Shown piece after piece: positions 16,361 to 36,917 of a DNA stretch of 54,887 nucleotides. Position 1 is the first letter of the stretch, and each line of letters begins with the position of its first letter. Under the pieces are notes generated by a model. The model was not told where the DNA came from. It searched no databases and saw only the letters and a list, made by a program, of their open reading frames with translations. The stretch is taken from contig JACSRX010000046.1 of the NCBI GenBank assembly GCA_014879535.1, positions 1-54,887 on the forward strand. Reading direction: 5' to 3'. Source of the DNA: Chthoniobacterales bacterium (GTDB lineage Bacteria > Verrucomicrobiota > Verrucomicrobiia > Chthoniobacterales > JACTMZ01). The position numbers were made by a program, and so were the translations under genes.

Positions 16361-18886
16361 ATGATTTCCATCCCCTCCCTCCGCATCGCCGCCGTTGCAA
16401 CCCTGTTGTCCGCCGCCGCTTTTCCGGACGCGAATGCCGACACCTTCTATTGGGGTGGCACCTCCAGCTCGGGAACCAATCCGCCGGTCGGTGGCACCGC
16501 CACTTGGGTGACGAATGCTACGCCTACGCGCTGGACGCTCCAGAATTACGCGGGTGTGGGGACGCCCGGGTATTTTGCGTGGGCTGACGGCAATACAGCG
16601 GTATTCGGAGGCACAGACGGGACGGTCAATATCGGCAACAGTTACACTCTGGTCGATTTCAACGTTGAAACCAGCGGTTACATCTTTGAATTCGGGGCCA
16701 CACGCACGCTCACGCTCACCAATTTCGGTGGGGCGGGGCTCTCCAGTTCGGTCTGGCGCCCCACCACGAATGCCACACGCACGCTCGTTTTTGCCGTCGA
16801 GGGCGATACCGAATTCACCGGTCTCCTGACCGATGCGACAAACGGCACCAGCCTGTTGAACTTCACCAAACAGGGCGCCGGAACGCTGACGCTGCCAAAC
16901 TCCAATTCGTTGACCGGAATTGTGACGGCCGGTGCGGGTGTCCTGCGTGTGGGCAACAACAATGCCTTTGGCCCGGGCACTGTCGTGATTAGCGCAAGCG
17001 CAACGCTTGCGGGGGCAAACCAAACCCTGACGATTTCCAATGCTGTCTCAGTCGGTGGCTCCTCCGGAAGTCCCTCGATCCTCGCCGGTGCCGAGAACAT
17101 CTCCGTTGTCGGCAAAACAGCGGGATCGGCTGGTGCCAGCCGCGGACTGCAGAACAACATCTCGCCGGGCAAGACGCTGACTCTCGGTGACGTGGACATA
17201 AGCCCGGACACAGCCAATAATCGCACGATGTTCTTCTCGGGAAGCGGGGAGACCCTGGTTTCCGGAACGATCGCCAATGGCAACGGTGTGACGACCAACA
17301 GCATCTCGCTGGCGGTTTCCGGGTCGATCACCCTGGCCTCCAGCAACAGCTACACCGGCACCACGACAATGGCGGCAAGCAACACCGGTGTCGTGCGGCT
17401 CGGTCATGACAATTCGTTCGGAACGGGTGTCGTGACTTTCAGCGGCGGAACGCTGCAGGCGCATGGTGGCCCGCGGACCCTTGCGAACAATTTCACGATC
17501 GGCGGGGATGTGACTTTCGGGGGATCCAACGCCATCGCGCTCAACGGGACGACGACAGTCAACAACAGCCGTGATGTCACCAACAATGTTGCCGGAGGTC
17601 TTGTGTTCAGCAATGTCGTGATCGGCATTGACGGCACGGCGCGCACGCTGATCCTCCATGGCAGCAACAGCACCACGTTCGCGGGCCAGATTGCCAACAG
17701 CTCTGCCCCGAACGTTGCGAGTCTGGATATCCGCTCCACCGGCCTGACCGTGCTGAATGCGAGCAACAGCTACAGCGGCAACACGGTCATCCGCGGGAGC
17801 GTGGATCCGACCAACATTCCGGGGGCAGTCGTGAAGATCGGAAGCGCCTATCCCTTCGGCTCGCCGGGCGGATCAAACACGGTGAACAGCGGCGCCCAGC
17901 TCGACCTCAACGGGCAGAGTGTTTCCGGCGAGGATCTGCGGATTCTCGGCTCTGGATTCCAGGAGGCGGGAGCCTTGGTGAACAGCGCATCCGCCGCCGC
18001 CAGTTGGGCTGGTCCGATCGCATTGCTGGGAGCAACCACGGTGGCAACGACCAACGGCAACATCGCCTTTTCAGGCGTCGTCAGCGGAGCCAATTCGGGC
18101 TTCTCGCTCATCAAGACCGGGTCCGCCACGCTCACCCTGTCCGGAGCAAACACCTATGTTGGCAACACGATCGTGAATGCCGGCCGGCTTGATCTTGCCA
18201 CCAATAGCACCCTGCGTTTTGTCATTCAGGCCAACGGAACGAACAATTCGGTGAGCGGGGCGGGCAGTGCCGGATTCAATGGTGCGTTCGATGTCGACCT
18301 GGCACTTGCCGGGACGAATCTCGCGGACTCATGGACGCTTGTCTCGGTTGCCAGCCCCACCTACGGGACCAATTTCATCGTCAATGGATTCAACACCTCG
18401 GGAGGCGGTATCTGGACGCTTGAGACCAACAACGTGACCTATGAATTTTCCCAGGCCTCCGGGGTTCTTGAGGTGACGGCAGTGGCCAATGCTTACACCA
18501 GCTGGCTGACGAATTATCCGTCGTTGACCGGCACCAACGCGGTTCCCTCGGCGGATCCGGACAGCGATGGTTTCAACAATGGCACGGAGTTCGCCTTCGA
18601 TGGCAATCCCACGATGGGGACTCCGGCCTTGATGACAGCTGTCAAGGGAGGCACAAACGTGCTGTTCCGCTATGTCGGACGCATCGACAGCGCGACGAAC
18701 TACCATGTCCTGTCCACCGCCAATCTCGCCACGGGGCCATGGGTGACGAACACCAATGTCACGGTGACGAATTCCGCGGACCAATCCGGCATTCTCCTGC
18801 CCGCGGAATACGTCCGGCGCGAGTTCAGCGTGCCGGGAACCAACAACGGTTTCTACCGCATCGAGGCCACGGTTCCGGCGCCCTGA
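16361..18886 (+). CDS. Autotransporter-type beta-strand repeat surface protein
   Basis: This 841-residue secreted protein begins MISIPSLRIAAVATLL and has a signal peptide ending near ANA/DTF (about 26). The body is rich in Gly, Ser, Thr and Asn. It contains repeats of the autotransporter-associated type, such as SNSYTGTTTM, SNSYSGNTVI and GANTYVGNTIVNAGRLDL, which predict a right-handed beta-helix. No outer-membrane barrel and no PEP-CTERM anchor are present. The C-terminal part carries a calcium-loop-like DPDSDGFNNGTEF motif from residue 732. Its N-terminal 150 residues are clearly paralogous to those of the protein at 32290-34695. A GH130 gene begins eight bases after its stop, suggesting a shared transcript and a role in substrate binding or adhesion. 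Confidence 0.82.
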   Translation: MISIPSLRIAAVATLLSAAAFPDANADTFYWGGTSSSGTNPPVGGTATWVTNATPTRWTLQNYAGVGTPGYFAWADGNTAVFGGTDGTVNIGNSYTLVDFNVETSGYIFEFGATRTLTLTNFGGAGLSSSVWRPTTNATRTLVFAVEGDTEFTGLLTDATNGTSLLNFTKQGAGTLTLPNSNSLTGIVTAGAGVLRVGNNNAFGPGTVVISASATLAGANQTLTISNAVSVGGSSGSPSILAGAENISVVGKTAGSAGASRGLQNNISPGKTLTLGDVDISPDTANNRTMFFSGSGETLVSGTIANGNGVTTNSISLAVSGSITLASSNSYTGTTTMAASNTGVVRLGHDNSFGTGVVTFSGGTLQAHGGPRTLANNFTIGGDVTFGGSNAIALNGTTTVNNSRDVTNNVAGGLVFSNVVIGIDGTARTLILHGSNSTTFAGQIANSSAPNVASLDIRSTGLTVLNASNSYSGNTVIRGSVDPTNIPGAVVKIGSAYPFGSPGGSNTVNSGAQLDLNGQSVSGEDLRILGSGFQEAGALVNSASAAASWAGPIALLGATTVATTNGNIAFSGVVSGANSGFSLIKTGSATLTLSGANTYVGNTIVNAGRLDLATNSTLRFVIQANGTNNSVSGAGSAGFNGAFDVDLALAGTNLADSWTLVSVASPTYGTNFIVNGFNTSGGGIWTLETNNVTYEFSQASGVLEVTAVANAYTSWLTNYPSLTGTNAVPSADPDSDGFNNGTEFAFDGNPTMGTPALMTAVKGGTNVLFRYVGRIDSATNYHVLSTANLATGPWVTNTNVTVTNSADQSGILLPAEYVRREFSVPGTNNGFYRIEATVPAP

Positions 18887-18894
18887 TTCGAGGC

Positions 18895-19986
18895 ATGGGC
18901 ACGGCTTGCGAGGAAACTCCAAGGGTTGCCCCCGGACGCGGGGATGGAGCGGTGGCGCGGCGCCTGACCGCCAATCCGATCCTGAGTCCCGAGGCGGTCC
19001 GGCCCAGTCATCCGGACCTTGTCGTTGAATGCCTTCTGAACCCAGGCGCCTTCGTCTGGAACGGCATCACCGGTCTGCTCCTCCGGGTGGCGGAACGTCC
19101 GCGGCAGGAGGAGGGGTGGGTCAGCACGCCCGTGTTGTCCGCCGACGGGGAAGTCGAGGTCCGGCGGTTCCGCACCGGCGATCCAGATCTGGATCTCTCC
19201 GATCCCCGCCTGATCCGGCATCGCGGGATGACATTCCTGACAACACTTTCCCACCTGCGGCTTGCATGGAGCCCCGACGGAGTGAAGTTCGCCGTCGAGG
19301 ACAATCCGGCGCTGGTCGGCGCGGGCCCCGGGGAAAACTTCGGGGTTGAGGATGCCCGCGTCGTCCGGATCGGCGACAGCTTCCATATCACTTACACCGC
19401 GGTCTCGGACAAGGGGCATGGCGTCGGGATGGCCAGGACCAAGGACTGGGCCATTTTCGAGCGCTGCGGCATGATCCTTCCGCCGCCGAACAAGGACTGC
19501 GCGATTTTCGAGAGGGCGATTGACGGCAGGTTCTGGATGCATCACCGGCCGACGACGAGCGGCTTCGCCGGCAATTGCATCTGGGCGGCCGAGTCCGAGG
19601 ACCTCGTGCACTGGTCCGGGCACCGGTTCGTCGCCGCGCCGAGGCCCGGCAGCTGGGACGAGGGGCGGGTGGGGGCCGGTGCGGCTCCGATCGAGACGGG
19701 ACATGGATGGCTCTCGGTCTACCACGGGGCCACCAGGGATCACCGTTACTGCCTCGGTCTGCTGCTGCTGGACCTTAACGATCCCTCAAAGGTTCTCGCG
19801 CGTTCCGCCGCACCGGTCATGCAGCCCGATGCGGATTACGAGGCTTCCGGGTTCCTAGGCGGTGTGATCTTCACGAACGGCCACGTGGTGGACGGCGACA
19901 GACTCACCATCTACTACGGCGCGGCCGACCATGTGGTGTGTGCCGCGGAATTCTCGCTCGGGCAGTTGCTTTCGACCCTCATTTGA
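18895..19986 (+). CDS. GH130-family glycoside phosphorylase or hydrolase
   Basis: The 363-residue protein has no signal peptide and should be cytoplasmic. Family features run in order: LTANPILSP, LLNPGAFVWNG (48-57), LSDPRL (101-106), FGVEDARVVRI (149-159, with Asp153 matching the GH130 catalytic aspartate), KDCAIFER and WDEGRVGAGAAPI, ending with the GLLLLDLNDP segment. GH130 enzymes mostly act on beta-mannosides, by phosphorolysis in most subgroups and hydrolysis in some; the subgroup cannot be fixed here. The start at 18895 lies eight bases after the surface protein stop. It probably processes imported oligosaccharides released outside the cell by neighbouring enzymes. Confidence 0.85.
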   Translation: MGTACEETPRVAPGRGDGAVARRLTANPILSPEAVRPSHPDLVVECLLNPGAFVWNGITGLLLRVAERPRQEEGWVSTPVLSADGEVEVRRFRTGDPDLDLSDPRLIRHRGMTFLTTLSHLRLAWSPDGVKFAVEDNPALVGAGPGENFGVEDARVVRIGDSFHITYTAVSDKGHGVGMARTKDWAIFERCGMILPPPNKDCAIFERAIDGRFWMHHRPTTSGFAGNCIWAAESEDLVHWSGHRFVAAPRPGSWDEGRVGAGAAPIETGHGWLSVYHGATRDHRYCLGLLLLDLNDPSKVLARSAAPVMQPDADYEASGFLGGVIFTNGHVVDGDRLTIYYGAADHVVCAAEFSLGQLLSTLI

Positions 19987-20091
19987 TTTCTCCACGACCC
20001 CGTGACCTTGGTTGGAAAATCACCGGTGGCGAATCGGGCACGCATCGCGGATGGTTTCCGCCACAATGCACGATCACCTGTTGTCCCCCCC

Positions 20092-22839
20092 ATGAAGCAC
20101 AGTTTCCCCATCGCAGGCGTCCTGCTTTTTTGCGCCACGGCGCTGTTGCGCGCCGACGCCCCCCTTTACTCCACGGAGTTCTCCAAGGCCGATCGCGGCA
20201 AGCTGCCCTCCGGCTGGAACGAACTCGGCGTTCCGAAGGCGAGCCCGAAGTGGGGTGTCGACGGCCAAGGCTTCCTGCGGGTCCTGTGGAAGGGGGAGAA
20301 CGGTGTGATCGCCTACGAGGGGCTGATGGCGGACGGCAGGAAGGCTGCGGAGCTGGTTGACGGAACCATCACGGCGCAGTTCAAAAAGACGCCGGATGAT
20401 GAGGTGCATGCCGCGGTTCTGGGACGCCTGCAGAACGAGAAGAATTTCCTGGGTGTCCGGTTTCTGGGTGATTCGCGCATCGAGCTGGTCCGCGTGAAGG
20501 ATGGCGCCGAAGAGGTTCTCACGAAATGGGTGACCCGCAGCCGCATGGGGGAGGAGGATGTGTGGACGCTCGAACTGACGCTGAACGGGCCGATGGTCAC
20601 CGGACGCGTTCTCAACGGAAAGAACGTGGAACAGGCACGCGTCGATGCGAAACTGGAGGGCGCGGATGCAGCCGGGGGCGGGGCGCCCGGCCTGGGGGCG
20701 ACAAACTTCGTCGGTTTCCGGTCATTCTCCGTCGTCGCCAAGGCGCCCGTGAAGGCGGTGATGTCACCCTCCGGGATCGAGGGAAAGAATGCGGCCTCGG
20801 CGCCGCGCGCCGTGGACTACAGGGTGCTGGCGCCCGCGGCGTCGCCGGAGTCGCTCGACACACCCTTCGTGAAACTTGCGTCCGCCTATGATGTGATCGT
20901 TGCCGGGGCCGGCACGGGAGGCTGGGCGGCGTCGCTGCAGGCCTCGAGGATGGGTGCGAAGGTGCTCCTGCTCGAGGAGAGCGATTGGATCGGCGGGCAG
21001 ATGGCGGCAGCTGCGGTGGCGACGATGGACGAGGAGGGATGTTGGGAGAAGTTCCCGGTGCGCGAGCGCGGGATCTACCGCGAGTTCCACGAGAGCATGG
21101 TGAATTTCTATTACACGATGAACAAGGACCCGTTCCGGGCCTACTATGCGTGGCCCGCGCAATTGGAGGGCGGCTACGAGCCGAAAGTCGTGCGGGCGGT
21201 GCTCTACGCTTTCATTGAGGAGGCCCGAAAGACCGGCGTTCTCGATCTCGCGGTGCGTTCACGGGTGGCGTCGGTGGACAAAAGCGGCGACACGGTGACC
21301 GGGGTGACCGTGGAGCATGTCACCGACTCGGGGGAGAAGGTGACCAGACGGATCGGAAGCAAGGTGCTCGTGGAGGCCACGGAATACGGCGACGTGCTCC
21401 CCCTCACCGGGGCGCGCTACCGCGTCGGGACCACGACGAGTGACGACGTTGAAGCCGAGGCGCTCGTGCAGCATCACACCTGGGTCGGGGTGATCCGTGA
21501 ATACCCGGACGGAGTTCCGCCGCACCTGGTGATGAAGCAGCCTCCGCCCGGCTACGATTCCAAGCAGTATCGGGGCTCGCAGCTCCACGGGCCGGTCGTT
21601 TGGGGCGGTGCGGGCAAGGACGTGAAGGGCCCCCGCTCCTACCGGGTTCTTTTCGCGTGGCGCGGCATGGCCGACAGCGACAGCCCTGCCACGGGGAAAC
21701 TCACGGAGCAGCGGCACACCCAGTGCGGCCTGAACGGCGGCCGCCAGGATTACCCGGTGACCGCGGCCTGCATCGAGGAGTCCAAGGCGCGGCAGGAGGG
21801 GCAACTCGGCGGCATTTACCGGACCCTTTCGGAGATTTACTATTTCCAGCAGGAGTTGGGGCTTCCATGGTCCGTTGCCGACGATGAGGGGTTCGACACG
21901 GCGCACAACCGCCGCACGATGGACGCTCTCGGGGTGAGGGACGATCTCAAGCCTCTTGCGGTCCAACTTCCCCAGTGGCCCTATGTAAGGGAGGCCCGCC
22001 GGGGGCGGGGTCTATACACGCTGCGGGCGGATGATCTGACGCGTTTTGAGAAGGCCAGGCTCTTCCCGACAGCAGTTGCGATGGGCGACTACTTCATGGA
22101 CCTCGATCACGGCGACACGGCCCATGCGGTCGAGGCCGATCTGGACAGCACCGAGCCGCCGCGGGGAGGCGGACCTTTCCAGGTGCCCTTCGAGGTTTTC
22201 ATCCCGGAGAAGATCGACGGGTTGGTCTTCGCCGAGAAGAACATCTCCCAATCGCGGCAGGTCAACGGGGCGACGCGCCTGCAGCCGGTCACGATTCTCA
22301 CAGGACAGGCCGCGGGTGCGATTGCAGCGCTCGCAATCCGGGGAAACGTCCAGCCGAGGAATGTCAATCCCGTGGCCGTGCAGCAGGTTCTCCTTGCCTC
22401 CGGCATGAACCTGGTTCAGCGGTGGTATGAGGACGTGGCATGGGGCACGGACCTTTGGCGTGCGTCGCAGTTGCTTTCGCTCTACGGCGTGATGGATCCG
22501 CCCGGGCACTTCGCGAAGGGCGAGAACACACCCCTCGGTGCGGGAAATTTCTGGCGTCCCGAGGGGCGGCTCTCCTCCGATGAATTCAACAGGGCGCTTG
22601 CGCGCCTCGCCGAGTTGTCCGGGAAGAACCCGAAGTTGTCCCCCGTGTCCGGCGAGCTGACATGGTCGTCCATCACCCCGCTCCTGAACTCCCTCGATGC
22701 CGGTTGGCAGTCTGCCGAGACCGGTGTTTCCGTCACACCGGAGAATTCCGTCACACGCAGGGACTTCGCCCTGATCGCCGCGCAGATCCTCGCCTCAACC
22801 GCCCGCCCGGTGCTGCTCAATGACAACACGGTTTCCTGA
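20092..22839 (+). CDS. Exported FAD-dependent oxidoreductase, type B, second copy
   Basis: Start 20092 gives a signal peptide (MKHSFPIAGVLLFCATALLRA) and a 915-residue product; a longer frame from 20002 lacks a leader. A jelly-roll domain spans about 24-215, and the Rossmann motif GAGTGG is at 272-277. The motif RHTQCGLNGG followed by RQDY places it with the protein at 6132-8723, with which it shares long identical-looking stretches such as PVRERGIYREFHESM. The C terminus has TRRDFALIAAQIL, resembling an S-layer-homology segment. Its last 20 bases overlap the start of the type A gene. A 105-base gap from the GH130 gene may hold a promoter. Substrate and acceptor are unknown. Confidence 0.86.
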   Translation: MKHSFPIAGVLLFCATALLRADAPLYSTEFSKADRGKLPSGWNELGVPKASPKWGVDGQGFLRVLWKGENGVIAYEGLMADGRKAAELVDGTITAQFKKTPDDEVHAAVLGRLQNEKNFLGVRFLGDSRIELVRVKDGAEEVLTKWVTRSRMGEEDVWTLELTLNGPMVTGRVLNGKNVEQARVDAKLEGADAAGGGAPGLGATNFVGFRSFSVVAKAPVKAVMSPSGIEGKNAASAPRAVDYRVLAPAASPESLDTPFVKLASAYDVIVAGAGTGGWAASLQASRMGAKVLLLEESDWIGGQMAAAAVATMDEEGCWEKFPVRERGIYREFHESMVNFYYTMNKDPFRAYYAWPAQLEGGYEPKVVRAVLYAFIEEARKTGVLDLAVRSRVASVDKSGDTVTGVTVEHVTDSGEKVTRRIGSKVLVEATEYGDVLPLTGARYRVGTTTSDDVEAEALVQHHTWVGVIREYPDGVPPHLVMKQPPPGYDSKQYRGSQLHGPVVWGGAGKDVKGPRSYRVLFAWRGMADSDSPATGKLTEQRHTQCGLNGGRQDYPVTAACIEESKARQEGQLGGIYRTLSEIYYFQQELGLPWSVADDEGFDTAHNRRTMDALGVRDDLKPLAVQLPQWPYVREARRGRGLYTLRADDLTRFEKARLFPTAVAMGDYFMDLDHGDTAHAVEADLDSTEPPRGGGPFQVPFEVFIPEKIDGLVFAEKNISQSRQVNGATRLQPVTILTGQAAGAIAALAIRGNVQPRNVNPVAVQQVLLASGMNLVQRWYEDVAWGTDLWRASQLLSLYGVMDPPGHFAKGENTPLGAGNFWRPEGRLSSDEFNRALARLAELSGKNPKLSPVSGELTWSSITPLLNSLDAGWQSAETGVSVTPENSVTRRDFALIAAQILASTARPVLLNDNTVS

Positions 22840-25654
22840 GTTCCGGGATTGGGTTGCGGTGGTTTGCTCCTTGGCTCTGGCCCTTGCCGGGGTGTGGGAG
22901 GCGCGTGCCGCGGAAGGTGCTGCGACGCTCTATTCGGTGGAGTTCCAGGCCGTGCCGCTCGGAACCGAGCCTGCCGGTTGGCTCGATCTGGTCGACCACC
23001 GACCGTCACGGAACTGGGCGGTGGATGGAAAGGGATTCCTCCGCGTCATGCTCAAGGAGTATGTCGGCAACCCGACCGAGGGAGACCGGCTGAGGCGGCG
23101 TGAATACCTGGAGCGCGGCGGATTGGGCAAGTTTGCAGGCGTCTTGGTCTATGACGGCCTGCTCGCCGACGGGGCCGCCGCGAAAAGTCTGGGTGATGTG
23201 ACTGCAGAGGCCTGGGGCAAGAAGACGCCGGACAGGAACGTGTTCGTCGGGGTGCTTCTTCGTGTGCAGGACAGCGCGAACTATTACGAGGCGAGGGTCA
23301 CGGGAGCGAACCGTCTCGCCCTGATCAAGGTGGAGAACGGCAAGGAGTCGTCCCTCGGCGAATCGGTGATGCCGCAACGTTTGACAGATGGTGCACCGTT
23401 TTCCATCCGCTTCCGTGCTTCGGGCGGGAACCTGTCCGCGTCCGTCCAGAATGGTTCCGGGCTGGAACTGGCGAAAGTGGATGCGAAGGATGCGACCTGG
23501 ATGCGCGGCTGGGCGGGGCTCAGTGCCACCACGTTCGGTGCATTTTCGAAATTCGCGCTCCTCTCACCGAAGCCTTTTGTCGCGAAACATTCCACCGCGG
23601 AAATGGACGCCGCCGACTCCCGCAGACCGCGTGCCGAATACCCCGTGGTGCGCTCCGTCGAGGATCCCGCGATGGTGGAAACACCTTTCTCCAAGCTCTC
23701 CGAGAATTACGATGTCGTCGTGGCCGGAGCCGGCACGGGTGGCGTCGGAGCAGCTCTTCAGGCCGCACGCCTTGGGGCGAAGGTGCTTCTCGTCGAGGAG
23801 ACGGATCACTTGGGAGGCCAGATGGGCAATGCGGCGGTGACCTCGATGGATGACGGGGGAATCTGGGGAAAGAACCCGGTTCGCGAACGCGGCATTTACC
23901 GCGAATTCCACGAAAGCGCGGTGAATCATTACTACACTTTGGACAAGGATCCGTTCACGGCCTACAAATTCAACCTGCAATCGGAAGGCGGATTCGAGCC
24001 GCGGGTCGCCCGGGGGATTCTTCTCGGCTTGATCGAGGAGGCCAGAAAGAGCGCGCCTCACGGGGCTGTGCTTGATTATGTCACGCGGACCAAGGTTTCC
24101 GGCGTCGGAAAATCCGGCGACACGGTCAACCGTGCCGACCTTGAACGCTGGACCGAACACGGGCCCGAAAAGCGGTCTGTTGCATGCAAGGTGCTTGTCG
24201 ATGCCACCGAATACGGGGATGTCATCCCGCTGACAGGCGCCCGCTACCGCGTCGGCGTCGGCACCAGCGACAATCTTGACCCGGCATCCCCGGTCCAAGA
24301 CCACACGTGGGTGGGGGTCATACGCGAGTATCCCGAGGGAATTCCCGACGAGTTGAAAATCAAGAATCCGCCGCCCGGCTATGAGACCATCAAGAGGCGG
24401 ATGAAAGGCTACCAACTCTACGGTGATGCCATCTGGGGCGGGGAACATCGCGGCGTCAAGGGACCACGATTGTGGTGGGTTTACGCTGCGTGGCGCGGAA
24501 TGCCGGATTCCAGCAGTCCCGCCACCGGGGAGTTGACGGAACAGCGGCATACGAAATGCGGCTTGAACGGCGGGAACGATTATCCTGTCAGCGCGGGCAC
24601 GATGGAGGATCCTGCCCGCCGGGCCAGTGATGAATTGGAGGGCATCAACCGCACGCTGGGCATTGTCTATTGGTTCCAGAACGAATTGGGGCTTTCATGG
24701 GCCGTGGCGGACGAAGAAGGGTATTTTTCCCCCTACAGCCTTGAGCGGATGAAGCAGCGCGGGGTGCGCGAGGATCTGCTTGCCGTGGCAGCGCGGCTGC
24801 CCCAGTGGCCTTACGTCCGGGAGTCGCGGCGAATCATCGGGGTGGAAACCCTGCGCGGCGAGGATCTCTACACGCGTGACCGCGGCACGGAGGCCGCCAA
24901 GCACTGGGCATCCGCCGTGGCGATCAACGACTACTCTTTCGACCTGCACGGCACCGAGGACAGCCTGGAGGAGGGGCTCGACGAGCACGACTACATCAAC
25001 GCCACGGGGCCTTTCGCAGTGCCGTTCGGCGTGTTCATCCCCGAAAAGATCGATGGATTCGTCCCCGCGGAGAAGAATTATTCCCAGTCCCGGCTGGCCA
25101 ACGGCGCAACCCGCCTCCAGCCGAGCACGATGCTCACGGGCCAAGCGGCGGGTGCGATCGCCGCATTGGCTGCGCTAAAATCCACTCAACCCCGCCATCT
25201 CAACATCATCGAGGTCCAGGCGTCGCTGCTTGATGCCGGTGATTCGCTCGTCTCCCGTTGGTATCGGGATGTCCCCTACGGAACGCCCCTGTGGCGGGCC
25301 ACCCAACTCCTGGCGCTGTATGGGGCGATGGACCGTCCCGGGGCGCTTCTGAAGGAAGAACCGTTGGGGCATGCTGCGTCTTGGGGCGCGGATGAAAAGC
25401 TGGGCGAGGCGGAGCGGGAGGCCGTGTTGACCCGCCTGGCCGCGGTGGTTCCGAAGGAGGCGCTTCCGGGTCCGTTGGCGGGGACGTTTTCGACCCGTGC
25501 CGAATTTGCGCTCGCCGCCGCGGAATTGTTGCGCGCCAACGGCCGCTACTCGGTTGCGGATCCGGCGCCGTTTGCGCCTCCGCATGATTTTGCAAAGGCC
25601 CGAAAGGCCAATGAAAAGAAGAACAACAAATCAGACAAAAGGAACGAATCATGA
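22820..25654 (+). CDS. Exported FAD-dependent oxidoreductase, type A, second copy
   Basis: The 944-residue protein has a signal peptide (core WVAVVCSLALALAGVW, ending near 30) and a jelly-roll domain to about 250. The FAD motif GAGTGG is at 303-308. RHTKCGLNGG followed by NDY and a lysine/asparagine-rich tail (KKNNKSDKRNES) mark it as type A, most like the protein at 792-3638. FSTRAEFALAAAELL near the end is S-layer-homology-like. It overlaps the preceding type B gene by 20 bases and the next gene by 4, so expression of the pair is probably tightly coupled. The preserved B/A pairing in both clusters suggests joint function, perhaps as a complex. Confidence 0.86.
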   Translation: MTTRFPEFRDWVAVVCSLALALAGVWEARAAEGAATLYSVEFQAVPLGTEPAGWLDLVDHRPSRNWAVDGKGFLRVMLKEYVGNPTEGDRLRRREYLERGGLGKFAGVLVYDGLLADGAAAKSLGDVTAEAWGKKTPDRNVFVGVLLRVQDSANYYEARVTGANRLALIKVENGKESSLGESVMPQRLTDGAPFSIRFRASGGNLSASVQNGSGLELAKVDAKDATWMRGWAGLSATTFGAFSKFALLSPKPFVAKHSTAEMDAADSRRPRAEYPVVRSVEDPAMVETPFSKLSENYDVVVAGAGTGGVGAALQAARLGAKVLLVEETDHLGGQMGNAAVTSMDDGGIWGKNPVRERGIYREFHESAVNHYYTLDKDPFTAYKFNLQSEGGFEPRVARGILLGLIEEARKSAPHGAVLDYVTRTKVSGVGKSGDTVNRADLERWTEHGPEKRSVACKVLVDATEYGDVIPLTGARYRVGVGTSDNLDPASPVQDHTWVGVIREYPEGIPDELKIKNPPPGYETIKRRMKGYQLYGDAIWGGEHRGVKGPRLWWVYAAWRGMPDSSSPATGELTEQRHTKCGLNGGNDYPVSAGTMEDPARRASDELEGINRTLGIVYWFQNELGLSWAVADEEGYFSPYSLERMKQRGVREDLLAVAARLPQWPYVRESRRIIGVETLRGEDLYTRDRGTEAAKHWASAVAINDYSFDLHGTEDSLEEGLDEHDYINATGPFAVPFGVFIPEKIDGFVPAEKNYSQSRLANGATRLQPSTMLTGQAAGAIAALAALKSTQPRHLNIIEVQASLLDAGDSLVSRWYRDVPYGTPLWRATQLLALYGAMDRPGALLKEEPLGHAASWGADEKLGEAEREAVLTRLAAVVPKEALPGPLAGTFSTRAEFALAAAELLRANGRYSVADPAPFAPPHDFAKARKANEKKNNKSDKRNES

Positions 25655-27084
25655 AAACGTCGATCATTGCAGCATTGGGTATCGTGTGTGCCGCCTGTCC
25701 TGTTCTGGGGCAGGGGACGGTGTTGACGAATGCTCCCAGCGTGCGGGGTGTGCTCCAGATGTTCATGGATGAGGACAATCTCACTCCCCAACAAAAGCAG
25801 CAGGTCGAGGCGGCCCTCTCCGGAGTCGTGCAGGAACCCGAAATCGCCTCGGTGATGTCGGAACTCACCGCCATGCGCATAAAAATCCAGGAGGGCAGAA
25901 AGCAGAATTCAGGCGCGGTTGACACGGAACTCGTGGAAAAATACCGGGAGATGCAGAGGGAGACCATGCCCAAGATCCGGGCCTCTCTCCTCGCTGTTGA
26001 TCCGAGTTTGGCGGAACTGATCAAGGGTGGTGGAGCAGGCAGCGCGCCTGCGACGGCCGAGCCGCCAGCGACCGCGGACACCCCTGATTCCCCGGCAAAC
26101 GGGGATGACAGTTCCGGAAAAGGCGCAATCAACATGTCCGCGGTGCGTTCCGTCACGATGACGCTGTGGAACGAGGACAACCTGAGCCCCGAGCAAAAGG
26201 CCCAAGCTGATGCAGCCGTGTCCAAGGTGCTGCAGCAACAGGGGATCGCTGCTTCCATGAGCGAGCTTGCCGAGGCCCGCAAGGCCCACCAGAACGAGCG
26301 TGCGAAGTTCCCGGCCGAGCGCGACAACTCGGTGAGCGCAAATTACCGCAGGGTGCAGAAAGTGACCACGGAAACTCTCAGGGCTGCGCTGCTTGCGGCG
26401 GATCCGGACATGGCCAAGATCATGACCGGGAAAAACGAGGGCGAGGATGCGACCGACTCGGAAAGCGGAAACAAGAGGGCCATGGTGCCCATCACCGACG
26501 TGGAAGGCCTGCCCCGGGTTCTGCTCATCGGTGATTCGATTTCGATCGGCTACACGCTCCAGGTTCGCGAGAAGCTCGATGGGAAAGCCAATGTCCACCG
26601 GGTCCCCATGAATGCCGGAGCAACCGAGGTCGGGTTGGCAAACATCGACAAATGGCTGGGCGAGGGGAAGTGGGATGTCATCCATTTCAACTTCGGGCTG
26701 CATGACGCGAAGTATGCGTCGGCGACCACGCAGCGTGCGACGCGGGAGCAATACGTCGCCAACCTGCAGCAGTTGATCGACCGCATGAAGCTCACCGGCG
26801 CCAAGCTCGTGTTCGCCACCACGACGCCGATCCCGGAGACGCTGGAATACGGCAAGGCCAAGGGCAACCGCATGTTCGATGGCATCCCCGAGCGGAATGC
26901 GCTGGCGGTGGAGCTGATGAAGAAGAATGGCGTGGCCGTTGATGACCTCTATGCCCTTGTGCTCCCGGTGAGGGAAACCGCCTGCCGCCCGTCGGACGTG
27001 CATTTCACACCGGAGGGCTATGAATTGCTTTCGACCGCGGTGGCGAAGAGCATCGAGGAGCAGTTGCCAGGAACGAATCCATGA
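25651..27084 (+). CDS. Secreted SGNH hydrolase with duplicated helical N-terminal domain
   Basis: This 477-residue protein has a signal peptide (about 1-21). Two homologous helical segments follow, about 28-125 and 161-259, both of the pattern SVR..DEDNLTPQQK or SVT..NEDNLSPEQK and both ending in LLAxDPxxA. An acidic/alanine-proline linker separates them. The SGNH domain starts near 285 with GDSIS (294-298, Ser296 nucleophile), and DVHF supplies Asp449 and His451. A good AAAGGA ribosome site lies before the ATG. Four-base overlaps on both sides indicate translational coupling. The helical repeats are unrecognised and may bind protein partners or the cell wall. An ester group on carbohydrate is the likely substrate. 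Confidence 0.8.
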   Translation: MKTSIIAALGIVCAACPVLGQGTVLTNAPSVRGVLQMFMDEDNLTPQQKQQVEAALSGVVQEPEIASVMSELTAMRIKIQEGRKQNSGAVDTELVEKYREMQRETMPKIRASLLAVDPSLAELIKGGGAGSAPATAEPPATADTPDSPANGDDSSGKGAINMSAVRSVTMTLWNEDNLSPEQKAQADAAVSKVLQQQGIAASMSELAEARKAHQNERAKFPAERDNSVSANYRRVQKVTTETLRAALLAADPDMAKIMTGKNEGEDATDSESGNKRAMVPITDVEGLPRVLLIGDSISIGYTLQVREKLDGKANVHRVPMNAGATEVGLANIDKWLGEGKWDVIHFNFGLHDAKYASATTQRATREQYVANLQQLIDRMKLTGAKLVFATTTPIPETLEYGKAKGNRMFDGIPERNALAVELMKKNGVAVDDLYALVLPVRETACRPSDVHFTPEGYELLSTAVAKSIEEQLPGTNP

Positions 27085-27833
27085 TGAACCTCCGGGGAAC
27101 CATTGCAGGGACCCTTGGGGTCGCGGTGTTTTCCATCCTGTTTGCTTCGGGTATACGTGCCGGGGATGAAGTGCCTCATGCCACGATTCAGGAGGCGAAG
27201 GTGGTCTTTCTGGGCGACAGCCTCACCACCAACAACGGCAATCTCGGACCCGCGCGGGGTTACTACCATTGGACCGACACGTTGCAGCAGCGCTTCAACC
27301 TGGAGGTCGTCAACCTGGGAAAAGGTGGCAGCAGGGCCGATGCCGGTCTCGGGCGGCTCCGCACGGCCTTGGCTGATGGGACCAAGCCGCCGGACTTCGT
27401 CCTGATCAACTTCGGCATGAACGACCACAAGATCCGCGAGAGTGACGGTCAGGACGTTTCCAGCCCGGAGGATTTCGAACGCCAACTCACAGAAATTGTG
27501 GCTGCGGCCAGAGTTGCCGGCGCAATCCCTGTCCTCGTGACGCCGCACAAGATCCACGAAGGCGCGCCGGATGAGCCCGGGTCCTACTACAACAAATACA
27601 CTCCCGCCAACTTCGACAAGGAGGGCGGAGCACTCGCCAGGTTCGACAAGTTCATCGCCGTCATCCGCAAGGTTGCATCGATGCAGAAGGTCGACCTCAT
27701 CGACCTCCGGGCGGAGTCGGACAAGCACCCGGGCGGATCCCTCACGTTGGACGGCGTCCATCTCAACGGGGCCGGGCACGGCATGTATGGCGATGTCATC
27801 GCGGCCCATCTTTCGGAAAAATATCCACCATGA
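27081..27833 (+). CDS. Secreted SGNH/GDSL hydrolase
   Basis: The 250-residue product has a signal peptide (about 1-27). The catalytic SGNH blocks are block I FLGDSLTTNN (Ser47), block III INFGMNDHK, and block V DGVHL with Asp224 and His227. It is highly similar to the C-terminal domain of the repeat protein at 32290-34695; both share GYYHWTD, LGKGGS and VTPHxIxEG stretches. It overlaps the upstream and downstream genes by four bases each. In this setting it is probably an acetyl or other short-acyl esterase acting on polysaccharide. Confidence 0.85.
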   Translation: MMNLRGTIAGTLGVAVFSILFASGIRAGDEVPHATIQEAKVVFLGDSLTTNNGNLGPARGYYHWTDTLQQRFNLEVVNLGKGGSRADAGLGRLRTALADGTKPPDFVLINFGMNDHKIRESDGQDVSSPEDFERQLTEIVAAARVAGAIPVLVTPHKIHEGAPDEPGSYYNKYTPANFDKEGGALARFDKFIAVIRKVASMQKVDLIDLRAESDKHPGGSLTLDGVHLNGAGHGMYGDVIAAHLSEKYPP

Positions 27834-29854
27834 GGAATTTCACATTGCGAAACATCCACGGCGCGCTCGCCCTGATTCTTGCGCCCGCCTGCATGGGGGC
27901 GGATCAGATCGCGTTGCCGACGGTGGAGAAGATGCCGCCTGTGCCCCATCCGTTCATCCTGAGGGATTGGAAGAACGTGGCCCGGAATTTCGATGAGATC
28001 GCCTTCGATTTCGACAGGCGGGGGGAGTTTCTGCCCCTCCCGTGGTGGGATGATTCCCGTGTGGATCACGAGATCACCGGCTTTGCACTGCCGGCGTATG
28101 TCGGGGATTTGCGACAGACGGCGGAGCGGAACAATTACGACGCCATTACCTGCATGGGCGCTGTCTTGGGCGCGACATTGGCGGGCATCGACAAGAGCAA
28201 CCAGAACGGACGCAACTGGGTGCGCATGCTCAACATCTATTACTCCCGCGCGAACGGCACGAACCTCTACATGAACAACCCCGGCGAGACGACAGGCCAG
28301 AGTTTCTGGTATGAGTTGTTTCCCAGCCTGTTGTTCTTCCAGATCTACGACCGTTACCGCGACGAACCCGGATGGCGCGAGCAGGCGCAGGCGATCGGAG
28401 AGCGTTGGTATGAAGGATGCAGGGCGCTCGGGGCCGGGGATGGCAAGGCCCCGGACTTCGACCACACGGCGCTTGATGTTGTCACGGGCCGTCCCTTCGA
28501 CAATCCGCGGTGGCGCGAGCCGGATGCGGCTGCGGCAGTCGCATGGCTTGAATACATGGCCTATGTGGTGACGAAGGACGCGAGGTTCCTTCAGGCTGCC
28601 AATTGGGCCATGCAGTTCCTGGAGGAGCGGCAGCAAAATCCGTTCTACGAGTGCCTGCTGCCCTACGGGGCGTATCTTTCCGCGCGCATGAACGCAGAGC
28701 AGGGCACGTCCTATCCGACGACGAAGCTGGTCAACTGGGTTTTCGACGGGGACAACCCGCGGCAGTGGGGGGTGATCGCGGAAAAGTGGGGCGATGTCGA
28801 AGCCTACGGCCTGATGGGCAGTGTGCACAAGGGGTCGGAATACGCGTTCACGATGAACTCATTCCTCGCTCCCGCGGTCATGGTGCCGATGGTCCGTTAC
28901 GATGCGCGGTATGCCCGCGCCATGGCCAGGTGGGTGTTGAATGCCGCGGTGAACAGCCGCTGCTTCTACGCCGACTCCATGGAGCCGGGGCGCCAGACCT
29001 CGTGGGACTGGTCATCCGCCAACGATCCCAAGTTCTCCATCGCCTACGAGGGGCTCCGCAAGCGAGGTGCGCGGCGGATACGGCTGGCGGAATCCGGGAA
29101 GGACGAAGTGCTGCGTCCCGGACCCGATGGCCGCATCGAGAAGATCTGGAGCACCGAGGTGCCTGCGGACAGCAAGAATGTCCTTGTGATGGAGTTGAAG
29201 CCGCGTGACGGAACCTCCGAGCGTGACGTCGACGTCAGTATTGCGTCCGCACCGGACGGCCCTTGGAAGTCCGCCTTCCGGTTCGCGAGGGGGGACAAGA
29301 ATCGCAAATGGATGAACCTGAAGAAACCCGGACCGCTTTACGTCCGGCTCGAGGCCGGCAAGGGATCGGCGCCGCGCGCCAAGCCTCTGGTCATCGATCA
29401 GGTTTTCATCGACTCCAAGTTCGAGATGACGCCATTCCTGAGCGGCGATCCGCTGTTTCACGGCTGGGGGAGGACGGATCTGGGCCTTTACGGCGGTTCG
29501 TTCGTCGGCCTGCTGGCGGCCTTGGTGGAGCCCACGGATGTCGAGGGCATCCTCCGCATCGACTGCCGCGCCACGGAGTCGTGGGCTGCCCCCGGTTATC
29601 CCACGTTCCTTCTGCACAATCCGCACAGGCAGCAGAAAACGGTCACGTTTCCGTGCAGCGACACCCCGTCGGACTTTTACGATCTCGCTTCCAGGGAAAT
29701 CCTCGTCCGTGACGCCAAGGGGAAAGCATCGCTGCCTTTGGCTCCCGATCAGGCCGTCGTGCTGGTCGGAATCCCCGCCGGCGGGAAACTCCAGAAGCTC
29801 GAGGGACGTCTCGAGTGCGACGGGATCGTGGTTGATTACGCTCCGGCCCCCTGA
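27830..29854 (+). CDS. Large secreted protein of unknown function, possible alpha/alpha-toroid
   Basis: The 674-residue product has a signal peptide ending near CMGADQ (about 23). The first 400 residues are helix-rich, with repeated aromatic and acidic patches (PLPWWDDSR, WLEYMAYVV, GQTSWDWSS-like segments). This suggests an (alpha/alpha)-barrel like those of some glycoside hydrolases and polysaccharide lyases. The C-terminal 220 residues look beta-rich, with a final VVLVGIPAGG strand pattern. No catalytic motif is recognised with confidence. It is the last gene of the coupled plus-strand cluster, overlapping the SGNH gene by four bases. It ends in a 19-base convergent overlap with the symporter gene. 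Confidence 0.6.
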   Translation: MRNFTLRNIHGALALILAPACMGADQIALPTVEKMPPVPHPFILRDWKNVARNFDEIAFDFDRRGEFLPLPWWDDSRVDHEITGFALPAYVGDLRQTAERNNYDAITCMGAVLGATLAGIDKSNQNGRNWVRMLNIYYSRANGTNLYMNNPGETTGQSFWYELFPSLLFFQIYDRYRDEPGWREQAQAIGERWYEGCRALGAGDGKAPDFDHTALDVVTGRPFDNPRWREPDAAAAVAWLEYMAYVVTKDARFLQAANWAMQFLEERQQNPFYECLLPYGAYLSARMNAEQGTSYPTTKLVNWVFDGDNPRQWGVIAEKWGDVEAYGLMGSVHKGSEYAFTMNSFLAPAVMVPMVRYDARYARAMARWVLNAAVNSRCFYADSMEPGRQTSWDWSSANDPKFSIAYEGLRKRGARRIRLAESGKDEVLRPGPDGRIEKIWSTEVPADSKNVLVMELKPRDGTSERDVDVSIASAPDGPWKSAFRFARGDKNRKWMNLKKPGPLYVRLEAGKGSAPRAKPLVIDQVFIDSKFEMTPFLSGDPLFHGWGRTDLGLYGGSFVGLLAALVEPTDVEGILRIDCRATESWAAPGYPTFLLHNPHRQQKTVTFPCSDTPSDFYDLASREILVRDAKGKASLPLAPDQAVVLVGIPAGGKLQKLEGRLECDGIVVDYAPAP

Positions 29855-31260
29855 GGCCCCGATTCGCGCTCCCGCTTCCGTTCGTCCAGCTGGCGGCGGA
29901 TGTTCTCGGAACGGGCGCGGGTGATCGGATACCTCCAGATGAACAGGATGGCGGCGAAGACCGCGACGATCTGGATTCCAATGAGCATGGACCGCATTGA
30001 GGCGAGTTGTGCGGCGTCGGGCGGCATGTTGGTGTCGTGGTAGCCTGCAAGCCTTGGAAGCCAGCCGCTGAGAAGCAAGGTGATGATGCTGGCAATTTTG
30101 CCCAGAAAGCCTCCGGTGGCGACATACATGCCCTCGCGGCGCATGCCCGTGCGGAGTTCATCCTCATCGGTGATGTCTGCCGTCATCGATCCGAACATGA
30201 GGGATGCCGCAGGCATGCCAAGGGCGATGATGACCCATGAGACGATGATGAGATACGGCGCTTGGGGAACCAGAGTGAAGGGAAGCAGGGAGATGCCGAC
30301 GAGAGCGATGCAGAGTCCGACGACGGCGCCGATCCTTTTTCCGTAGTGCGTCGAGATCCACAGGCCCAGGGGCAAGGCGGCAAAGCTCGAAAAGACCGTG
30401 AGGGTTCCCCCGAATCCGGTGATGACGGAAGCCAGTTCCTTGCTGCCCTGGCAGGTGTAATAAATGTGGACGTAACTGCCGATCAGGCCTTCGCATCCCG
30501 TGCCGATCGCGATGATCAACACGCTGGCCTGCAGGATCAGGAAGGGACGGTCCGACAAGGTGAGTTTCAGCGCAGGCAGGAGCGGGATCTTGGGCTGCCT
30601 TGCCGAGGCCTCCACCTTTTCTCGGCAGGCGAACACCGTTGCCAGCAGGCCTGCGAGCATGACGAGGCTCACGAATCCGCTGATCCAGCGAACCCCCACC
30701 ACCTCGTTGCCAAATACGGGATGCAGGCAGGCCCAATAAAGCCACGCGGCTCCGAACGTGCCCAGCACCTGCACATAGCCCTTCCACGCGAGCACGCGCG
30801 TGCGCTCGTCGTAGTTGGTGCTCAACTGGAAACCGAGCGCCCCGTAGGGGACGACAAAGAACGAATATGCCGCCGCGAAGATCCCGAGGAGGATGGCAAG
30901 CCAGATGAACATCCCCGTCTGCGTCGCCACGGGCGGCATCCAGATCAGCGGCAGAAGGATCACCCCGATCAGGCCGCCGCCCAGGATGAAGGGCTTCCTC
31001 CGTCCCCACCGGGTTCGGGCGTTGTCGGAGATCGCCCCCGCCACCGGATCGGTGACCGCCCCCACAACCTTCGGAATGGCGAGCGCCACGGCGACAAGCA
31101 TGGGGTCCATCTTCAGCGCGATGGCGAAGATGGGGACCGCCATCGCGTTGACGAGATTGAGGAAGAAATAGTCCGTCAACCCGCCCAGCCCGTAGGAAAT
31201 TTTGGTCGCCAGGGGAACCCGCTCTGCTGGAGGCACGGGGTGGGAGGTTTCTGTGGTCAT
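29836..31260 (-). CDS. GPH-family sugar:cation symporter (MFS)
   Basis: The 474-residue protein has about twelve hydrophobic helices. It shows glycoside-pentoside-hexuronide symporter features: KISYGLGGLTDYFF at the first helix, DPVAGAISDNARTRWGRRKP in the helix 2-3 loop, and a MelB-like central loop. GPH proteins import glycosides or uronides with protons or sodium. It is the only obvious sugar importer near the two clusters and could take up the oligosaccharides made outside. It is convergent with the unknown secreted protein and divergent from the prepilin-like gene. A GTTCGAA repeat pair lies between the two divergent starts. Confidence 0.88.
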   Translation of the reverse strand: MTTETSHPVPPAERVPLATKISYGLGGLTDYFFLNLVNAMAVPIFAIALKMDPMLVAVALAIPKVVGAVTDPVAGAISDNARTRWGRRKPFILGGGLIGVILLPLIWMPPVATQTGMFIWLAILLGIFAAAYSFFVVPYGALGFQLSTNYDERTRVLAWKGYVQVLGTFGAAWLYWACLHPVFGNEVVGVRWISGFVSLVMLAGLLATVFACREKVEASARQPKIPLLPALKLTLSDRPFLILQASVLIIAIGTGCEGLIGSYVHIYYTCQGSKELASVITGFGGTLTVFSSFAALPLGLWISTHYGKRIGAVVGLCIALVGISLLPFTLVPQAPYLIIVSWVIIALGMPAASLMFGSMTADITDEDELRTGMRREGMYVATGGFLGKIASIITLLLSGWLPRLAGYHDTNMPPDAAQLASMRSMLIGIQIVAVFAAILFIWRYPITRARSENIRRQLDERKRERESGPQGAGA

Positions 31261-31337: not shown

Positions 31338-31372
31338 ACGTTCGAAAAATGCGCTTCTTGCTGTTCGAACGT
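31338..31372. promoter_or_regulatory. GTTCGAA inverted/direct repeat pair, candidate operator
   Basis: ACGTTCGAA (31338-31346) and TTCGAACGT (31364-31372) form a perfect 9-bp inverted repeat. The core GTTCGAA also recurs as a direct repeat 23 bases apart, about two helical turns. The element sits between the divergent symporter and prepilin-like genes. A similar GCGTTCGAATTT occurs at 34745-34756, between another divergent pair. It resembles a binding site for a LacI- or AraC-type regulator; the regulator is unknown. Confidence 0.45.
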
Positions 31373-31423
31373 CACGGCGAACCAATTTGTGGAAATGTTG
31401 CGGAAGTAGGCTTTGTTAATCCT

Positions 31424-32289: not shown

Positions 32290-34695
32290 TCAACGGGGAA
32301 ACTGTTCCGCCAGAAAGTCCCCGATGACGTCGCCATACATCTGGTGGCCGAGGCGGCTGAGGTGGACGCCATCGATGGTGTAGGCGGAGCGGTCATAATC
32401 GTCGGAAGCCTGACGGAGGTCGATCAACGCGACATTCTGCGAATACGCGACACGGCGCGTGGCTTCCATGAACGTGTCGAAGCGCATGAGCGCACCGCCA
32501 TCTTGGCTGAACAATGCGGGGTCGTATTTCTCGTAATAGCTCCTCGGCCAGCCCTTCCCGCCCTCGAAAATCGCATGGGGGGTGACGAGAATCGGGATGG
32601 AGCCGACGCTTCTGGTCAATGTGACAATGCGGGTGAGATCATCCTCGAACTTGGCCGTGTCCATGACGGGCAGTCCGTTCTTCTCGTAAATTTTGTGGTC
32701 GTTCATGCCGAAATTGATCAGCACGAAGTCCGGACGGTTGCCATCGGTCACAAGGTTTTCGTAGAGGCGGTCGTAGCCTGCGTAGGCGTAACTTCCCCCT
32801 TTGCCGAGATTGGTGACGGTGAGGTTGAAGCGCTGCTGCAGCACGTCGGTCCAGTGGTAGTAGCCCCGGGACGGGCCGAGCAGGCCGTTGTTGCTGGTCA
32901 GGCTGTCCCCGAGGAACACGATCCTCGCATTCAGAATGGGGGTGGCGGCGTTTCCGGAAGCAAGCCTTCTGGCGGCCAGCTGCAGGAATTTCTGCGAGGC
33001 CGTGCCGCGCCGGGTTGAAAAAATACGGCGCTCCGTCGCACCCGGGACAGATCCTGATTGATCCTCCGCTGGCACGCCGATGATCCGGTTGCCGAGCCAT
33101 GTGGAGAGGTTCGTCGAAACCAGACCGAACACCTCCACGTCCGGGTCGTTGATGCGCACGACCGCGGTGACAGAAAGCATGCCGTCCGGGCTCATCGCGG
33201 GCGCGGGGTGCGGGAGCGGACGGAGGGTGCCATCGGAGCCGAGCCCGTAAGCCACCAAGGAGCCGATGCCGTCCCTGTCCGGATCATCCGCGGGGGATTG
33301 CCCGGGAAATGTCGCATCGAACCCGGCCGCCGGAGCGGGTTGGGGCAGGACGACAAGAGTCCGGCTCACGTTGGCGGCGGTGTGATAGCTTGCATCGCCG
33401 TCTTGGCTGGCGGTGATGACGGTGGTGCCGGGGCCGTTGATCGTCACAAGGAAGCTCGAGAGTCCGGAGATGCTCGCAACGTTGGTGTCGGATGAGGTGT
33501 AGCTGACAGCCAAGGCCGAGGATGCCGTGGCCCGAAGGCTGAAGGGGGGAGCTCCCTCCGTTTTCTGCGGAAGCGGGGCGAAGTTGATCGACTGTGCGGA
33601 CTTGGCCACGATCACCGAGTTGGTGATGGAATGGCCGGAGAGATGGCTGTTCGTGTCGTCCGACGTGAATGTCGCCACGAGCCTGTTCGTTCCCACCCCC
33701 AGAATTTCCCCGGGTGCCACCTCCGTGCCGGTTGTCAGCGCATAGTTGAAGGTGCCGGGGATGTTCGCGGTCGCCGTGAGCAGGGTGCTTGGGAGGGCGC
33801 GCGTTCCATAGATGATGGTTCCCAGTGGGGTCGGCTGCCAATCGAGCACGGGCGCCGTTCGCGTCGAGGCAACCAGCACCAGCGATGTGCCGGCATGGTT
33901 CGTGAGTTCGTAGCCGGGAACCCCGGTCAGGCTCGGAGTCCCCTGGATGCCGGACGCCTGCAGGGCGATCACATTGATGCCGGCATGCTCGGCAGGCAGC
34001 CGCAGTCCTGAGCCGGGAGCGAATGTGACCGTTCCCGGCACGGAAAGGGGGGAGTTTCCGTTCACCTCGAGAACGGCGCCGGCACTGACTTGGAGATTGG
34101 TGCTGGAAAGGGTTCCCGAAATTCTGAGCGTCCCCTCATTCACCAAGGTGTTCCCCGTGTAGGTGTTGTCGCGCGACAGCATCAGCGTTCCCGAGCCCTG
34201 CTTGGTGAGCGAAAGGCGGCTGGTGCCGTTCGTGTTGTCGCTCAGGAGCGCCGTCAATCCGGTGGAGCCTGTCACGGACAGCGTGAGTGTCCGGCTTGCG
34301 GCTGAAGATGGACGGAATGTGGCGGTGGCCAGGCCGGAACCGCCGAACTCCCGAAGTTCCAAAGTCCTGGGGCCCCCGAATTCGAAAATGTAACCCGATG
34401 TCTCGACCAGGAATCTCTCGAAGACGTAGCTGCCGCCGATGTTGACCGTGCCGGCGTTGCCACCGAAGACGGATGTGTTCCCGTTTGTCCAAGGGCCGTA
34501 GCCGCCGCCGCCCTGACCGGAGTAATTTTTTGCCGTCCACCGTGTGACGGTGGGTGTCCAAGTGGCGGTTCCACCGACCGGAGTGCCCGTTCCAGAGGAT
34601 GTGGGGCCGCCCCAATATTGGGTGTCACCCAAGGCAAAGGTCGCCGACACCAAGACGAGCGACGCCGACAGATACGCGACAGGAAATGAGATCAC
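32290..34695 (-). CDS. Beta-strand repeat protein fused to an SGNH hydrolase
   Basis: The start is GTG at 34695, giving MISFPVAYLSASLVLVSA, and the product is 801 residues. The first 150 residues are paralogous to the surface protein at 16361-18886 (both start D-T-x-YWGG and share ETSGYIFEFG). A single strong autotransporter-type repeat unit follows (RDNTYTGNTLVNEGTLRI). Next come Ig-like or cadherin-like beta domains (about 250-480) and a DDPDRDG calcium-loop motif. From residue 590 there is a complete SGNH hydrolase: GDS at 596-598 (Ser598), NFGMND (661-666), Asp775 and His778. It may anchor an esterase at the cell surface or on the substrate. It lies divergent to a PEP-CTERM gene. Confidence 0.85.
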   Translation of the reverse strand: MISFPVAYLSASLVLVSATFALGDTQYWGGPTSSGTGTPVGGTATWTPTVTRWTAKNYSGQGGGGYGPWTNGNTSVFGGNAGTVNIGGSYVFERFLVETSGYIFEFGGPRTLELREFGGSGLATATFRPSSAASRTLTLSVTGSTGLTALLSDNTNGTSRLSLTKQGSGTLMLSRDNTYTGNTLVNEGTLRISGTLSSTNLQVSAGAVLEVNGNSPLSVPGTVTFAPGSGLRLPAEHAGINVIALQASGIQGTPSLTGVPGYELTNHAGTSLVLVASTRTAPVLDWQPTPLGTIIYGTRALPSTLLTATANIPGTFNYALTTGTEVAPGEILGVGTNRLVATFTSDDTNSHLSGHSITNSVIVAKSAQSINFAPLPQKTEGAPPFSLRATASSALAVSYTSSDTNVASISGLSSFLVTINGPGTTVITASQDGDASYHTAANVSRTLVVLPQPAPAAGFDATFPGQSPADDPDRDGIGSLVAYGLGSDGTLRPLPHPAPAMSPDGMLSVTAVVRINDPDVEVFGLVSTNLSTWLGNRIIGVPAEDQSGSVPGATERRIFSTRRGTASQKFLQLAARRLASGNAATPILNARIVFLGDSLTSNNGLLGPSRGYYHWTDVLQQRFNLTVTNLGKGGSYAYAGYDRLYENLVTDGNRPDFVLINFGMNDHKIYEKNGLPVMDTAKFEDDLTRIVTLTRSVGSIPILVTPHAIFEGGKGWPRSYYEKYDPALFSQDGGALMRFDTFMEATRRVAYSQNVALIDLRQASDDYDRSAYTIDGVHLSRLGHQMYGDVIGDFLAEQFPR

Positions 34696-34881
34696 GACAT
34701 CAAATATAACTTGAGAATCCAGATTAGTTCGCTTGGGTAGCCCGTGCGTTCGAATTTCAGCGGTCGCTATTCTTGGTTCGGATCGGGTGGGAGCCCCGCT
34801 TGTTCAAAAAAAACCGCACGCGAATTGCATACGCGGTTTCGGTTGGCATTTGACACATTGCGACGAAACGCATCCCCCACC
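34696..34881. promoter_or_regulatory. Divergent control region with stem-loop
   Basis: This region separates the repeat-SGNH gene from the PEP-CTERM gene. It holds a GTTCGAA core at 34747-34753. It also holds AAACCGC (34811-34817) paired with GCGGTTT (34833-34839), directly after a run of eight A. The latter could be an operator or a leader hairpin. A TATATT-like sequence near 34705 on the minus strand may be a -10 element of the GTG-started gene. No regulator gene lies beside it. Confidence 0.4.
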
Positions 34882-36838: not shown

Positions 36839-36858
36839 GTCCGTTTGATTGAACGGAC
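36839..36858. promoter_or_regulatory. Palindrome upstream of the LPMO-chitinase gene
   Basis: GTCCGTT-N6-AACGGAC is a perfect 7-bp inverted repeat with a six-base spacer, centred about 70 bases upstream of the ATG at 36918. The spacing suits a dimeric repressor or activator site. No -35/-10 pair is obvious and the regulator is unknown. Confidence 0.45.
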
Positions 36859-36917
36859 AGGGCGTCCTGCCGGTCATATCCTCATCGACCAAAGCCCCTG
36901 GATGCGGGCGCCGTCTC

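Follow-up and report, generated by a model that had tools for sequence, protein, structure and literature searches.

A predicted SGNH O-acyl esterase joined behind beta-rich surface-type modules in a Chthoniobacterales genome

The fusion gene and its neighbourhood

The window, that is, the whole 54,887-nucleotide stretch of contig JACSRX010000046.1 that was analysed, encodes on its minus strand a protein, P0003, in which a complete SGNH hydrolase domain stands at the C terminus of a beta-rich, surface-type protein. P0003 and the genes of the adjacent cluster are as follows.

16361..18886 (+), P0002, with the same N-terminal module (N-module) as P0003, PATR repeats and a C-terminal domain (C-domain), and without an enzyme
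18739..19986 (+), GH130 family protein (PF04041, 1.3e-47)
20002..22839 (+), FAD-dependent oxidoreductase 1 (PF12831, 9e-70; syntenic in L038)
22820..25654 (+), FAD-dependent oxidoreductase 2 (PF12831, 9e-68; syntenic in L038)
25651..27084 (+), SGNH1, a different SGNH protein of the cluster (PF13472, 1.9e-10; 59% identical to L038)
27081..27833 (+), SGNH2 (P0001), a free SGNH paralogue with its own putative signal peptide (syntenic copy in L038)
27830..29854 (+), E674, a partner enzyme candidate without a Pfam family (60% identical in L038)
29836..31260 (-), MFS_2 sugar transporter (PF13347, 6e-68; 74% identical and syntenic in L038)
32290..34695 (-), P0003, the fusion gene (GTG start at 34695, 801 aa, no internal stop)

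The cluster at 20002-31260, comprising two FAD oxidoreductases, SGNH1, SGNH2, E674 and the convergent MFS_2 gene, is syntenic at 59-74% identity with L038, a locus from another family of the same order, and the L038 copy carries an extra SASA-type esterase. In the window the GH130 gene adjoins this cluster, and its product matches NCBIfam mannobiose phosphorylase models below their cut-off. A pilin-like protein of a type common in Planctomycetes and Verrucomicrobiota, which carries a methylation motif at its N terminus and 'FADGHVE' late in the sequence, is encoded at 31349-32137. The divergent neighbour of P0003 (34744-36747) is a PATR protein with a PEP-CTERM-like tail, and 36849-39611 encodes a chitin-degrading multidomain enzyme that combines LPMO_10, CBM2, GH18 and a C-domain in one protein.

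The open reading frame at 32290-34695, listed in the initial annotation without a strand, is real and lies on the minus strand; read on the plus strand, this interval is interrupted by stops. Its GTG is the sole ATG/GTG/TTG start upstream of the conserved N-module within an 837-aa open frame. Frame 0 had the best codon score in 19/19 sliding windows, and GC3 was 0.75-0.80 in every part of the gene. An assembly join or frameshift error could in principle have fused two separate genes, one for a surface protein and one for a free SGNH enzyme, and such an artefact would fit a genome fragmented into 97 contigs and the absence of P0003 as a whole from every other genome searched. However, the interval 32900-33300, where such an error had been suspected, contains no stop and no frame shift by inspection of frame and codon score; coding bias keeps one frame throughout, which argues against an assembly join, and GC3 is uniform. 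The position of the join coincides exactly with a domain boundary, the signal peptide of the esterase is missing, and no SGNH relative on the rest of the genome is more than 64-65% identical, so that no near-identical donor for a chimeric contig is present. On another contig this enzyme pair occurs in two further decorated forms. We consider an artificial fusion extremely improbable. As far as sequence can show, the fusion is real: a rare arrangement with a real joint and parts of known kinds.

Domain architecture and the junction

P0003 can be divided into the following parts.

34627..34695 (-), residues 1-23, putative signal peptide (MISFPVAYLSASLVLVSATFALG), recognized by eye in the sequence
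34096..34626 (-), residues 24-200, N-terminal 'YWGG' module (N-module), predicted beta-rich
34120..34209 (-), residues 163-192, single PATR repeat (PF12951, 3.7e-11; TIGR02601, 1.3e-12)
33331..33855 (-), residues 281-455, Ig-like stretches (sub-threshold Big_2 match)
32965..33327 (-), residues 457-577, Verrucomicrobiota C-domain, internal here (127.7 bits to profile A6)
32938..32964 (-), residues 578-586, junction (relatives stop at most 7 aa past the C-domain; SGNH homology from residue 587)
32296..32937 (-), residues 587-800, SGNH hydrolase domain (Pfam Lipase_GDSL_2 at residues 594-785)

The putative signal peptide is hydrophobic, which suggests that P0003 may be secreted; against this, it starts at GTG and lacks a basic n-region (no basic residue). 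The N-module is present in three copies among 388 genomes of the phylum, all of them in this genome: in P0002 beside the cluster, in P0003 on the SGNH domain, and in a protein at another locus (L068) on an E674-type (E-type) protein. The P0003 copy is 43% identical to the L068 protein, and the N-terminus of P0003 shares 54% identity with P0002 over about 192-197 aa (E 3e-53), which bears out the proposed relationship to 16361-18886. The PATR repeat exceeds the Pfam cut-off and also passes the TIGR02601 beta strand repeat model (47.2 bits versus a cut-off of 19.85). Ig-like domains had also been claimed; such stretches are present, at less than the claimed strength, with a sub-threshold Big_2 match (E 0.03) as their only match. 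Residues 281-576, covering the Ig-like stretches and the C-domain, are 33-44% identical to large proteins of related genomes (33-38% for proteins of G004, G005, G007 and G033). Only the SGNH part and a portion of the N-module (pLDDT about 60-84 at residues 71-220) are well modelled, and confidence is low in the middle of the structure model. P0003 resembles the PATR/TIGR02601 proteins of Verrucomicrobiota in its PATR repeat, signal-like N terminus and large beta-rich build; it differs from most other PATR proteins of this genome, whose C-terminal element is a PEP-CTERM-like tail, a barrel or a C-domain, in having an enzyme at this position. Residues 120-216 (the PATR part, 1.3e-9) and 561-795 (the SGNH part, 3.5e-6) gave weak PHROG matches to tail fibre proteins, which probably reflect shared domain types only.

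The C-domain (motif DPDxDG...W...FLxL, also written with the ending FxRx) matched no Pfam family when Pfam was searched. It was found in all 11 genomes of the genus that were searched, with 26 copies in this genome (G000), and it lies at or near the stop codon in 24 of these 26, a count in which some profile matches are partial and the leftover tail completes the domain. The two internal copies belong to P0003, with 224 residues after the domain, and to a large protein on contig C42 (L217, G000:C42:51500-53675), the sole other protein of this genome with an internal C-domain. The Ig/C-domain block also ends the protein in five related genomes (in G002 the C-domain alone); the distance from match end to stop is 3-7 residues in four of the five, and in G004 the stop falls just inside the match. 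Because the C-domain is thus normally protein-final, the junction is placed at residues 578-586, which makes P0003 a 3' fusion in which the esterase no longer has a signal peptide of its own; the joint would have replaced the old stop codon. The initial annotation had placed the esterase where an anchor might be expected. The C-terminal position stands, and is better described as lying behind a domain that is itself normally C-terminal. We regard the C-domain as a candidate sorting or structural domain. If P0003 is correctly localized, this widespread domain need not be C-terminal, which bears on the question of whether it serves as a sorting tag.

The designation 'autotransporter-type' did not survive a Pfam scan: P0003 has one PATR copy only and no PF03797 beta-barrel, and the same scan detects the barrel at 165 bits in L135, the real autotransporter of this genome, which served as a positive control. 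Membership in the type Va autotransporters was rejected on the lack of a C-terminal PF03797 barrel. The GDSL-lipase autotransporters (EstA, ApeE and McaP; group 6) are anchored in the membrane and have no beta-helix stalk (PMC9289746). They share with P0003 an exported GDSL-type esterase on a surface-type protein, and the combination of a PATR repeat and a GDSL-type enzyme in one protein would suit an EstA-like type V autotransporter with an esterase passenger. However, the layout is reversed in P0003, which has beta-rich modules in front, no barrel, and the enzyme itself at the C terminus, so that an EstA-like reading has next to no likelihood. The protein ends ...GDFLAEQFPR, without the PEP motif, transmembrane helix and basic tail of a PEP-CTERM/exosortase C-terminus.

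The SGNH domain scores over the cut-off for PF13472 (Lipase_GDSL_2, 1e-17) and has a complete catalytic set: Ser598 (block I), Gly633 (II), Asn665 (III) and Asp775/His778 (V). The three residues named in the initial annotation (Ser598, Asp775 and His778) were exact, and Gly633 and Asn665 are present as well. Foldseek aligned the SGNH part, modelled at a local pLDDT of about 60-86, to SGNH structures with a probability of 1.00 and TMt of up to 0.78, so that P0003 has both the block residues and the flavodoxin-like alpha/beta fold of the superfamily. Among the fold matches are Axe2, sialic acid esterase and rhamnogalacturonan acetylesterase, and also thioesterases and lipases; a profile search gave an acetylxylan esterase (7ddy, E 8e-10) as the closest solved sequence. 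Catalytic blocks and fold are alike in P0003 and in SGNH/GDSL acetylesterases (AlAXEase 7ddy, Axe2 and rhamnogalacturonan acetylesterase), whereas sequence identity is low and in P0003 the domain follows 580 residues of repeat, Ig-like and C-domain sequence. Scores of the free paralogue P0001 against NCBIfam esterase models lie far below cut-off. SGNH enzymes act on lipids and other esters too. The P0003 domain most likely acts as a glycan deacylase, with acetyl as the probable group removed.

Relatives of the parts of P0003

The esterase had been described as closely related to the free enzyme at 27081-27833, and P0001 is indeed a true homologue (59% identity over 214 aa, E 2e-83). Pairwise comparison placed other relatives closer: identities to the P0003 SGNH domain are 64% for L067, 61% for L038 and 59% for P0001. 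The L067 protein (L067:8171-11407) is a second SGNH fusion, on contig C66 of the same genome. It belongs to the same SGNH clade and has the same kind of C-domain, and differs from P0003 in its N-terminal SGNH domain, its other repeats and its C-terminal C-domain. An approximately unbiased (AU) test on the four SGNH sequences accepted all three topologies (p-AU 0.65, 0.42 and 0.32). The clade was found in two genomes in the phylum, order and class samples, which overlap and hold an estimated ~800 different genomes in total; its members score 408-422 bits and the next match scores 69 bits.

A recent recombination between the local genes at 16361-18886 and 27081-27833, as the initial annotation proposed, would draw on two true homologues on the same contig. 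The mosaic character of P0003 and the homology of both relatives hold, but the identities are only 54-59%, so the events are old, which argues for excluding a recent local event. Moreover, the P0003 SGNH domain is closer in identity to L067 than to P0001, and a tree and the AU test both leave its sister open. Residues 281-577 (Ig-like stretches and C-domain) come, judging by sequence comparison, from a third family, and the P0003 C-domain shares only about 25% identity with that of P0002. At least three sources are thus mixed in P0003, and we hold recent local recombination to be very unlikely.

The initial annotation suggested a search for repeat-SGNH fusions in other Verrucomicrobiota. PATR was in frame with SGNH in 0 of 13 SGNH loci of the order, among the matches listed, 12 of these 13 being the loci listed with longer open frames. 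Longer SGNH frames in the phylum search had other architectures, for example glycosidase-SGNH and esterase-SGNH. The literature that was searched yielded nothing specific on Verrucomicrobiota PATR proteins with SGNH domains.

Proposed role and the three formats of the enzyme pair

P0003 would belong among the modular secreted carbohydrate-active enzymes, a known kind. We propose, as a probable though far from certain reading, that P0003 is a long-established secreted SGNH carbohydrate O-acyl esterase of the adjacent cluster, fused behind surface-type modules that keep it close to its substrate or to the cell surface. A complete SGNH O-acyl esterase domain would have been joined behind a protein with repeat, Ig-like and C-domain parts, and would belong to the enzyme set of the cluster (FAD oxidoreductases, SGNH1, SGNH2, E674 and MFS, with GH130 beside it), where it may deacetylate a polysaccharide or its oligosaccharides. 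SGNH2 would be the plain soluble version. It is most likely through the beta-rich front modules that the enzyme stays close to substrate or cell surface, as the architecture and the recurrence of this decoration on a partner protein suggest. None of these modules is assigned to a carbohydrate-binding family, so a 'targeting' role is proposed by analogy.

P0003 might instead be mainly an adhesin or extracellular-matrix protein, its esterase modifying the cell's own exopolysaccharide or matrix and not a nutrient glycan. The PATR/PEP-CTERM neighbours (34744-36747, with its PEP-CTERM-like tail) suggest surface biology, and P0003 lies on the strand opposite the main cluster, 5 kb from SGNH2. Nevertheless, both the SGNH clade and the N-module are associated with the catabolic cluster and the E protein, and a sugar transporter and GH130 adjoin. 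We judge the adhesin role unlikely, and favour the cluster esterase described above.

The partner enzyme candidate E674 had no Pfam family and no PDB profile match, and its model, built from a two-sequence input with a mean pLDDT of 38, gives a mostly helical impression only. Members of its family are as follows.

27830-29854, E674, in the window
L038:9535-11532
L067:5628-7679
L068:7217-8767

Outside the class, in distant Verrucomicrobiota, E674 relatives lie near GH130 genes in three genomes (G263, G246 and G366), with MFS_2 genes close by as well in the first two. E674 is of interest as a candidate for an enzyme family that Pfam does not model, and possibly for a new carbohydrate-active enzyme family. 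Domain shuffling here reformats a small enzyme set, in which two catalytic units occur plain and with two beta-rich module sets: E and SGNH2 are plain in the cluster, the N-module is attached to SGNH2 in P0003 and to E in L068:5336-9193, and E and SGNH stand in tandem on L067 in a format with QTF-type repeats and a C-domain. These plain and decorated versions offer a natural comparison for the role of the front modules. More speculatively, and with more doubt than conviction, the 'YWGG' module could be a new glycan-binding or surface-sorting module, attached separately to the SGNH esterase and to E674 (each with plain, N-module and QTF-repeat versions), and E674 could found a new carbohydrate-active enzyme family working with GH130 and MFS_2. 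We note that on L067 the E-type protein (L067:2556-8126) adjoins the SGNH protein (L067:8171-11407) at about 102.5-111.4 kb of G000:C66, and that the two share QTF-type repeats at 57-75% identity and C-domains at 63%.
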